Part shown: positions 15,430 through 18,261 of the stretch, in pieces
How positions within the stretch are numbered: position 1 is the first letter of the stretch
Layout: the number at the start of each line of letters is the position of its first letter
Assembly: GCA_019745555.1 (NCBI GenBank)
Contig: JAIESX010000027.1
Coordinates: 1-64,000 of the forward strand
DNA length: 64,000 nt
Direction of reading: 5' to 3'
Origin: Burkholderiaceae bacterium
Lineage (GTDB): Bacteria > Pseudomonadota > Gammaproteobacteria > Burkholderiales > Burkholderiaceae_C
Position numbers and translations under genes: made by a program
Notes under the pieces: generated by a model
The model's database searches: none
What the model was told of the DNA's origin: nothing
What the model saw: the letters and a program-made list of their open reading frames with translations, nothing else

Positions 15430-16092
15430 GTGCTGCGCGAGTCTCTCAACCGCGCCTTGCTGAGCGGGGCGGCGAAGCCCCTGCTGTTTCTGGGCTGTCT
15501 GGCGCCGGCCGGCTGGCTGGTCTATGGCGCGTTTGCGGATCAGCTTGGCGCCAATCCCGCCGAGTACCTGCTGCGTGCGACGGGCGACTGGACCTTGCGC
15601 CTGCTGTGCGTGGTGCTGGCCGTGACGCCCTTGCGCGTGAGTCTCAGGCTGCCCGGACTGGCGCGTCTGCGGCGCATGCTGGGGCTGTATGTCTACTTCT
15701 ACGCCGTCCTGCACCTGCTGTGCTACGCCTGGTTCGACATGGGCTTCGATCTGCAGGAGATCGCCCTCGATATTCCCAAGCGTCCCTTCATCCTGGTGGG
15801 CTTCACGGCCATCGTGCTGCTGACCCCGCTGGCGGCGACGTCCTGGAACCGTGCCATCCGCCGGCTGGGCGGGGCGCGCTGGCAGGCGCTGCACCGGCTG
15901 GTCTACGTCGTCGCCGTGCTGGCCGTGCTGCACTTTTTCTGGATGCGTGCCGGCAAGAATGACTTTGCCGAGGTCTACGCTTACGCCGCGGTGCTCGGCT
16001 CCCTGCTGGCCTGGCGCCTCTGGCGCCGGTTTTCAGGCCAGGGCGGCAGGCCTGCTGTTGGTCATGCGCGGATCGATCAGCGCACGCGGTAG
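15430..16092 (+). CDS. msrQ: Protein-methionine-sulfoxide reductase haem-binding subunit MsrQ
   Basis: Directly downstream of msrP; ferric-reductase-like TM protein (LRLPGLARLRRMLGLYVYFYAVLHLLCYAWFD). Confidence 0.92.
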   Translation: MLRESLNRALLSGAAKPLLFLGCLAPAGWLVYGAFADQLGANPAEYLLRATGDWTLRLLCVVLAVTPLRVSLRLPGLARLRRMLGLYVYFYAVLHLLCYAWFDMGFDLQEIALDIPKRPFILVGFTAIVLLTPLAATSWNRAIRRLGGARWQALHRLVYVVAVLAVLHFFWMRAGKNDFAEVYAYAAVLGSLLAWRLWRRFSGQGGRPAVGHARIDQRTR

Positions 16093-16848
16093 CTGGTAGT
16101 TGCGGTCGTCGAAGAGGTCGACGCCACAGGCCAGGTTCTCGATCCAGTCGAAGAAGGCGGCAATGGCCGGGCCGGCCAGCGGCGCGCCATGCTGCGGCAC
16201 GATCATGGCGATGTCCAGCTTGCGCGCCATGGCTGCCCACAGGCGCAGCACCTTGTTCGAGACCATGTAGCGGCGGTGAAAGCCCTCCATGAGATGCACG
16301 TGGGAGCTGAAGTCGGTCACGGGCCTGCTGGCCTGCTGACCCGACATCATGGAGACACCCAGGTCGCCGCTGAAGAGGATCCGGCTGACCGGGTCATAGA
16401 AATGGAAGTTGCCCTCGGCGTGCATGAAGTGCGCTGGCAACAGATGCAACTCGCTGCGGCCCAGGGGCAGGATGCCACCCGCATCGTTGACGCCGATGAT
16501 GCGGCCTGTGGTCTTGCCGACCTTCGTGAAGTGCGGCACGAAACGCTCCCAGACACGCGAGATCACGAGCTGCGCAGGGGTCGAGGTCAGCCAGCGGTCC
16601 AGCGAGGCGATGATGTCCGGGTCGGCATGCGAGGCCAAGATATAGCTCAAATCCTGTGGCTTGAAGTAGCGCGAGCAGGTCAGCAGGAGTTCGTTGAAGG
16701 CCAGGTTGCCGCCCGGATCGACGATGGCGCCGTGGTCATGGTCGACGATGAGGAACTGGTTGGCCTGGACCGCGTTGCCGTCCTCTTCCACCAGGTCGGT
16801 GAACATGAGGCAGACATGGTGAGGATCACGGTAGAGCTCGATGGACAC
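16033..16848 (-). CDS. MBL-fold / oxygen-binding di-iron (ODP/flavodiiron-type) protein
   Basis: ILASHADPDIIASL, HFMHAEGNFHFYDPVSRILFSGDLG, VPQHGAPL metal-ligand pattern. GTG start 16848 (VSIELYRDPHH) preceded by AGAAAGG at 6 nt. Confidence 0.82.
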   Translation of the reverse strand: MSIELYRDPHHVCLMFTDLVEEDGNAVQANQFLIVDHDHGAIVDPGGNLAFNELLLTCSRYFKPQDLSYILASHADPDIIASLDRWLTSTPAQLVISRVWERFVPHFTKVGKTTGRIIGVNDAGGILPLGRSELHLLPAHFMHAEGNFHFYDPVSRILFSGDLGVSMMSGQQASRPVTDFSSHVHLMEGFHRRYMVSNKVLRLWAAMARKLDIAMIVPQHGAPLAGPAIAAFFDWIENLACGVDLFDDRNYQLPRALIDPRMTNSRPAALA

Positions 16849-16877: not shown

Positions 16878-16917
16878 AGGACCTGTACCCACGGTGAATG
16901 CCGTTTGGACAGGTCCT
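16878..16917 (-). other. Perfect 9-bp inverted repeat in predicted 5' leader of the di-iron protein gene
   Basis: AGGACCTGT (16878-16886) / ACAGGTCCT (16909-16917) with inner ACGG/CCGT pairing. Confidence 0.7.
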
Positions 16918-16924
16918 GGGCGCC

Positions 16925-16966
16925 ACTATAGAAAAGATGCGCTGGGGGTGACTTGATTTGCATCAA
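16925..16966 (-). promoter_or_regulatory. FNR/Anr/Dnr-type box plus -10 (class II geometry)
   Basis: TTGAT-N4-ATCAA at 16953-16966, exactly 22 nt from TATAGT (minus strand 16930-16925). Confidence 0.8.
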
Positions 16967-16986
16967 ATCAGCCCCGATCGCGAGAC

Positions 16987-18261
16987 TCACAGCAGTTTTT
17001 CGTGCCGGAAGGTGTCAGCGGCGCTTTCGCGTTGGCGGATCAGGTGGGCCTGGTCCGCGTCGACCAGCACCTCGGCCGCGCGGCCCCGCGTGTTGTAGTT
17101 GCTGGCCATGCTCATGCAGTAGGCGCCAGCCGAGAGCACGGCGAGCAGATCGCCTGGCTGCACGTCGAGCGCGCGGTCCCGGCCGAGCCAGTCACCGCTT
17201 TCGCAGATGGGCCCCACCAGATCCCACGTGCTGGTGCTGCCCGCACGCGCGGTCAGCGGCACGATCTGGTGGTAGGCCTCGTACATGGCCGGGCGCGGCA
17301 GGTCGTTCATGGCGGCGTCGACGATGCAGAAGTTCTTTTGCTCGCCAGGCTTGAGGTAGAGCACTTCGGTGAGGCAGACACCGGCATTGCCCACCAGGGA
17401 GCGTCCGGGCTCGATCATGAGCTGGCGCTCGCCGTAGCCGCGGGCGTCGAGCTTGGCGAGCAGGCGGGCCCACAGCGCGTCGGCGGCCGGTGGCGTGTCG
17501 CCGTTGTAGTCAATGCCGAGGCCGCCGCCGAAGTCGATATGGTGCAGGTGGATGCCGGCGGCCTCGATGGCGTCGACGAGGTCGAGCACGCGGTCCATGG
17601 CGTCGAGGTAGGGGCCTTCCTGTGTGATCTGTGAGCCGATGTGGCAGTCGATACCCACGACCTGCAGGCCCGGCAGGGCGGCCGCGCGCTGGTAGGTGGC
17701 CAGGGTGCGCTCGTGCGCAATGCCGAACTTGTTGCCCTTGAGACCGGTGGAGATATAGGGGTGGGTCTTGGCGTCGACGTTGGGGTTGACACGGATGCTG
17801 ACCGGCGCGCGCTTGCCCAGCGAGCGCGCGACCCCGTCGAGCACGTCAAGCTCGGACTCGCTCTCGACGTTGAAGCAGCCGATGCCCGTCTCCAGGGCCT
17901 GGCGCATTTCAGCGCGGGTCTTGCCCACACCGGAGAAAATGATCTTGCCGGGCTCACCACCCGCTGCGAGCACGCGCTCGAGCTCACCACCCGAGACGAT
18001 ATCGAACCCGCAGCCTGCGCGCGCGAACAGCTGCAGGATGGCCAGCGAGGAATTGGCCTTCATGGCGTAGCAGATCTGTGCCCGGCGTCCGGCGAACCCG
18101 CGCTGGTAGGCGGCCAGGGCGTCCAGCATGGCGGCCTTGGAGTAGACGAAGAGCGGGGTGCCGTAGGTACGGGCCAGATCGGCGAGACGCACGTTCTCGA
18201 TGTAGAGCGCGTCGCCGCGGTAGGCGATGTGGGGGCGACCCGGGAGATTCTGGGCGGTCAT
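16987..18261 (-). CDS. lysA: Diaminopimelate decarboxylase
   Basis: ICYAMKANSSLAIL PLP-lysine motif, HIDFGGGLGI, EPGRSLVGNAG, CESGDWL. Confidence 0.96.
   Translation of the reverse strand: MTAQNLPGRPHIAYRGDALYIENVRLADLARTYGTPLFVYSKAAMLDALAAYQRGFAGRRAQICYAMKANSSLAILQLFARAGCGFDIVSGGELERVLAAGGEPGKIIFSGVGKTRAEMRQALETGIGCFNVESESELDVLDGVARSLGKRAPVSIRVNPNVDAKTHPYISTGLKGNKFGIAHERTLATYQRAAALPGLQVVGIDCHIGSQITQEGPYLDAMDRVLDLVDAIEAAGIHLHHIDFGGGLGIDYNGDTPPAADALWARLLAKLDARGYGERQLMIEPGRSLVGNAGVCLTEVLYLKPGEQKNFCIVDAAMNDLPRPAMYEAYHQIVPLTARAGSTSTWDLVGPICESGDWLGRDRALDVQPGDLLAVLSAGAYCMSMASNYNTRGRAAEVLVDADQAHLIRQRESAADTFRHEKLL

Follow-up and report, generated by a model that had tools for sequence, protein, structure and literature searches.

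An FNR-type class II promoter very likely drives an unlinked ODP-family di-iron protein gene behind lysA in a Burkholderiaceae bacterium

The question raised by this locus is whether odp, a di-iron protein gene that follows lysA on the minus strand of a 64,000-nucleotide stretch of Burkholderiaceae DNA (the window), is expressed from a promoter of its own, and to which signal such a promoter would answer. A sequence-only reading had proposed an FNR/Anr-type promoter responsive to low oxygen or NO. The relevant features, in the order in which they are met on the minus strand, are as follows.

16987..18261, minus strand: lysA, diaminopimelate decarboxylase (TIGR01048, 517.6 bits), the upstream neighbour of odp
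16945..16975, minus strand: extended hairpin or palindrome that encloses the operator, ∼11 nt past the lysA stop (-17.2 kcal/mol, z -5.1)
16966-16953, minus strand: FNR/Anr-type operator TTGATGCAAATCAA, centred at -41.5 and conserved in orthologues
16952-16931, minus strand: spacer of 22 nt, conserved in length and not in sequence, with no -35 hexamer
16930-16925, minus strand: -10 hexamer TATAGT (family consensus TACAGT)
16918, minus strand: transcription start, predicted from geometry only
16879..16916, minus strand: hairpin of 38 nt in the 5' leader (-23.4 kcal/mol, z -4.3)
16861-16855, minus strand: ribosome-binding site AGAAAGG; the five nearest relatives have an identical or similar motif ahead of the start
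16033..16848, minus strand: odp, encoding an ODP-family (PF19583) di-iron protein of 271 aa, GTG start at 16848-16846

Inspection of the letters and coordinates bore out exactly the perfect TTGAT-N4-ATCAA palindrome that had been read at 16953-16966 (plus-strand letters TTGATTTGCATCAA) and the minus-strand TATAGT precisely 22 nt beyond it; the start predicted at 16918 agrees with the box centre of 16959.5 minus 41.5. The minus strand runs from the lysA stop TGA (16989-16987) through the operator, the 22-nt spacer, TATAGT and the predicted start to AGAAAGG and GTG. Relative to that predicted start, the arrangement has the class II layout of an operator centred at -41.5 and 22 bp from a sigma-70 -10 element. 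No -35-like hexamer was present between the operator and TATAGT, and a generic sigma-70 scan called no promoter in the odp upstream region. The odp box is the single perfect match in the window and one of eight in the whole genome (2.99 Mb), with no match to a reversed control pattern.

Conservation of the box among relatives had been set beforehand as the observation on which the proposal could fail, and the box was found to be kept, together with its spacing. The comparison covered 102 distinct orthologue upstream regions, all from the GTDB family of the window. A perfect box was present in 23 (mean of 0.02 in 100 dinucleotide shuffles), a box with at most one mismatch in 63 (shuffle mean 0.4) and a box with at most two mismatches in 86 (shuffle mean 4.3). 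When a TAnnnT hexamer at exactly 22 nt was additionally demanded, the respective counts were 21 (0 in shuffles), 46 (0 in 100 shuffles) and 60 (0.02 in shuffles). Over gaps of 10-35 nt, TAnnnT was found at 22 nt in 57 loci, at 21 nt in 8 and at 23 nt in 2, with any other gap represented by no more than 8. The rest of the sequence of these loci, 641 kb read on both strands, held the combination of a box with at most one mismatch and TAnnnT at 22 nt just once. Column counts over the 60 loci gave the consensus C-TTGAY-N4-RTCAA-G-N21-TACAGT, with no strongly conserved letters inside the spacer; the A and G of the -10 element were 90% and 80% conserved, respectively, though the selection rule did not require them.

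The promoter is not universal. Box plus spacing was absent from 26 of 101 own-family orthologues, about a quarter; L010-L012, three members of the same genus with about 70% identity, are among them. Of 40 orthologues from other Burkholderiales families (47-63% identity), 14 have the promoter, in most cases with a gap of exactly 22 nt, and none of 20 paralogues (34-44% identity) has it. At one locus (L029, position 1094) the box is missing from its usual place, and a box-N21-TACAGT unit lies ∼400 nt further upstream of the orthologue, as would be seen after an insertion of DNA separating the gene from its promoter.

The leader of the window's odp is 70 nt long, and those of orthologues are usually 20-35 nt. 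Between promoter and ribosome site it contains the hairpin noted above (GGACCTGT...ACAGGTCC), an insert that the sister genomes, the nearest relatives, do not have. It was considered as a repeated element and rejected as such, since the genome holds one copy. The hairpin might stabilise the transcript or act as an attenuator, and could reduce expression. Start codons of orthologues are mostly placed two codons before the query's first residue and are ATG or GTG. At the other end of the gene, the last 60 nt of odp are shared with the 3' end of the convergent msrQ reading frame (16033-16092).

The downstream gene had been read as encoding an ODP-type di-iron protein, and sequence, metal ligands and fold agree on this. 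A profile search of the product matched PF19583 over its full length (E=2.7e-71, profile 1-194 of 194), and the closest solved chains by sequence were the oxygen-binding di-iron proteins 6qrq (E 1e-57), a Thermotoga maritima protein, and 6qnm (E 2.8e-54); the closest solved relatives are oxygen-binding chemotaxis sensors of Thermotoga and Treponema. The ten best fold matches of an AlphaFold model (pLDDT 82.7) were all ODP chains (TM 0.75-0.90), ahead of flavodiiron cores, and included 6r9n, which is titled as a peroxy di-iron species. No variation was seen across 161 homologues at the ligands H72, D74, D76, H141, D160 and H218 (residue numbers count from the isoleucine of IELYRD). The HxExDH motif defines flavodiiron proteins; the corresponding position in the odp product reads HADPDI, and the profile search revealed no flavodoxin domain, which places the protein outside the flavodiiron group. 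Neighbour clustering returned no operon partner beyond the lysA/msrPQ context, a weak negative given that ORF picking is crude in GC-rich DNA. By analogy with its relatives, the protein most likely binds O2, and possibly NO, at the di-iron site as a sensor or buffer. Binding, sensing or buffering is preferred here over a reductase function as a matter of judgement, since a flavodoxin domain and a conserved redox partner gene are both missing.

A candidate regulator is present. The genome encodes FNR, with the cluster motif CSNCNLRELC (CX2CX5C), a further cysteine at 109 and the recognition helix LETVSR (ExxSR), scoring 246.8 bits against NCBIfam Fnr NF008365 (cut-off 228). Other perfect boxes in the genome precede two uspA (universal stress protein) genes, a NarX/NarQ-like kinase, a copper P-type ATPase and a DASS transporter, and TAnnnT follows at 21-23 nt in four of these five. 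In Herbaspirillum, uspA genes are direct, Fnr-activated targets (PMC5934665). Of 23 promoters that FNR activates directly in E. coli, 19 carry their site at -41.5 plus or minus 4 (PMC3688515). A reporter has also demonstrated a class II FNR promoter for cld of Ideonella, another Burkholderiales bacterium (PMC7349173).

Judged from its letters and their conservation, the odp promoter is very likely of the FNR class II type, and an FNR(Anr)-dependent class II promoter serving odp as a single-gene unit, whose product is likely an O2 (possibly NO) sensor or buffer, is the explanation to which we assign a probability of about 0.87. That the same switch is kept at the same spacing in dozens of related bacteria makes it very probable that the protein is produced once oxygen is exhausted. 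In the mechanism that we infer, [4Fe-4S]-FNR dimers would, at low oxygen, bind TTGATGCAAATCAA at -41.5, substitute for the missing -35 element and bring RNA polymerase to the TATAGT -10 element, with transcription expected to begin at ∼16918. Induction of odp would then be independent of the housekeeping lysA transcript. The predicted product is a soluble ODP-type protein of metallo-beta-lactamase fold, free of flavodoxin domain or partner gene, whose di-iron site may bind O2 or NO; it would be a sensor or buffer made ready in hypoxia rather than a stand-alone reductase.

The TTGAT-N4-ATCAA motif is common to FNR and DNR, so the box alone cannot separate the two, and an NO-sensing Crp-Fnr protein of DNR/NnrR type could instead be its main user, in which case odp would answer to NO in denitrification. 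The genome does encode a Crp/Fnr-type regulator (L132; G000:C44:54028-54243) that lacks the N-terminal cluster cysteines yet carries a PETLSR recognition helix; this sequence is possibly DNR-like and may thus be a second, possibly NO-responsive reader of the same box, although its score is far below every NCBIfam cut-off. Among 301 genomes of the family (106 with odp and 195 without; statistics that ignore phylogeny), nirS was enriched alongside odp (47/106 versus 42/195), as was narG (64/106 versus 70/195; with one genome per genus, 25/42 versus 34/99, odds ratio 2.8, p=0.009). Against this, the window's genome has narG but neither nirS nor nirK, the nearest relative (G021, 100% complete) has odp and a perfect box but none of narG, nirS and nirK, and 8 of the 25 loci examined come from genomes that have no narG and no nir. 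Given that G021 lacks all three markers, the association of odp with narG and nirS fits low-oxygen life better than NO production, and the NO half of the original low-oxygen-or-NO claim is weakened. We reject a reading in which NO is the sole signal, as box and gene occur in genomes without narG, nirS and nirK, and consider a DNR/NnrR-type protein as main user to be unlikely.

A different reading holds that the palindrome is primarily a 3' hairpin of lysA, a terminator or mRNA end, and that its resemblance to an FNR box is incidental. In the window the palindrome folds as a 13-bp hairpin directly past the lysA stop, and all nine loci with box-centred stems of at least nine pairs are lysA-adjacent. 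At least six of the seven flanking pairs were formed in 7 of 23 lysA-adjacent loci and in 1 of 47 others (Fisher p=0.001), and each of the seven forms in 39-83% of lysA-adjacent loci versus 9-43% in slid controls. The arms co-vary: they differ in sequence between species, yet each matches its partner. This suggests that a hairpin follows the lysA stop codon and has its core in common with the operator; as related species do not count as independent observations, the shared hairpin and operator is a lead. With regard to INDEPENDENCE from lysA, however, among the 99 loci with enough upstream DNA to judge adjacency, box and -10 element at 21-23 nt were present in 23 of 35 lysA-adjacent loci and 44 of 64 others, a similar frequency with and without lysA next door, so that the promoter belongs to odp and the suggestion that odp has its own promoter despite following lysA holds. 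A terminator does not explain why the core box and the 22-nt distance persist without lysA, and the site has no U-tract; a plain intrinsic terminator of lysA was rejected on this persistence and on a terminator scan that found no T-run. A second role of the extended palindrome as the 3' hairpin of the lysA mRNA is possible, but a primary one is very improbable. Slightly less probable still is that FNR represses from this site, as it can from some positions elsewhere (PMC3688515), since the -41.5 centre, the missing -35 and the constant distance to the -10 element form the layout of an activating class II promoter. Mismatched boxes are common, with 23 sites of at most two mismatches in the window, but conservation of box and spacing in orthologues beyond both the shuffles and the remaining 641 kb leads us to reject a chance match, the probability of which is negligible.

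The FNR-type promoter sets the window's clade apart from a second group of ODP genes in the same order. Ten of 20 paralogues directly follow a gene with a chemoreceptor signalling motif (assigned by eye; eight also by pattern), and six such neighbours that were scanned all matched PF00015; one exceeded the curated cut-off and the other five were weak hits. By contrast, an MCP motif was found near 1 of 102 odp genes of the window's clade, and no MCP-like gene adjoins odp in the window. Nine of the ten linked paralogues fall on one long, fully supported branch in a FastTree phylogeny, a grouping to be read with a long-branch warning. Paralogues L183 and L190-L198 begin 8-35 nt past the end of chemoreceptor-like genes that are short and in part degenerate, and have no FNR boxes. 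The linked paralogues parallel the Treponema ODP, for which genetic coupling to a chemoreceptor homologue is described (PMC7666581).

A broader and more tentative proposal, which we regard as less likely than not, is that Burkholderiales contain a second kind of ODP: an unlinked single gene, built by FNR when oxygen is absent, whose product might sense or capture the first returning O2 via its di-iron site and feed a pathway other than a linked chemoreceptor. Behind lysA, the operator might then be merged with the lysA 3' hairpin into a dual-purpose DNA/RNA element.

As a promoter it belongs to a familiar type. The novelty is a variant, a lone ODP clade very likely driven by FNR, and among the papers searched none was found that links ODP with FNR. 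The 14-bp operator at -41.5 and the 22 bp to the -10 element are the same as at the class II FNR/Anr promoters of E. coli narG and nirB and Ideonella dechloratans cld, which likewise have no good -35, and the window's genome encodes a four-cysteine FNR. What differs is the target, and the frequent nesting of the operator in a longer palindrome beside lysA. An O2-binding protein induced at low oxygen within an FNR regulon has a precedent in Ca. Accumulibacter, where the gene of a hemerythrin, a di-iron protein, is annotated for oxygen detection and lies under an FNR motif (PMC6446978); its fold is unrelated to that of ODP.

At the protein level, the ODP structures of Treponema denticola and Thermotoga maritima (PDB 6qnm, 6r9n, 6qrq and 6qwo) belong to the same Pfam family, use the same six metal-ligand positions and, when aligned by fold, are 35-39% identical to the odp product across the entire domain; in all of them HxDPD[IV] replaces the flavodiiron HxExDH. 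With the flavodiiron proteins FprA and ROO the product has in common the metallo-beta-lactamase-fold di-iron core, but it lacks their flavodoxin domain and has one His and one Glu ligand replaced; it is probably not a self-contained O2/NO reductase. Whereas the Treponema ODP is coupled to a chemoreceptor (PMC7666581), the window's odp stands as a single gene, unlinked, behind a promoter of FNR type; chemoreceptor-coupled ODP also exists in Burkholderiales, as paralogues without an FNR box, so that the FNR-driven lone form is distinct from the chemoreceptor-linked form within one order. Knowledge of ODP proteins has so far come from a few solved structures and a single chemotaxis system. For this large, mostly unlinked clade in a common group of environmental bacteria, the conserved, very probably oxygen-regulated promoter indicates when the protein would be made and opens a direct test of ODP function.
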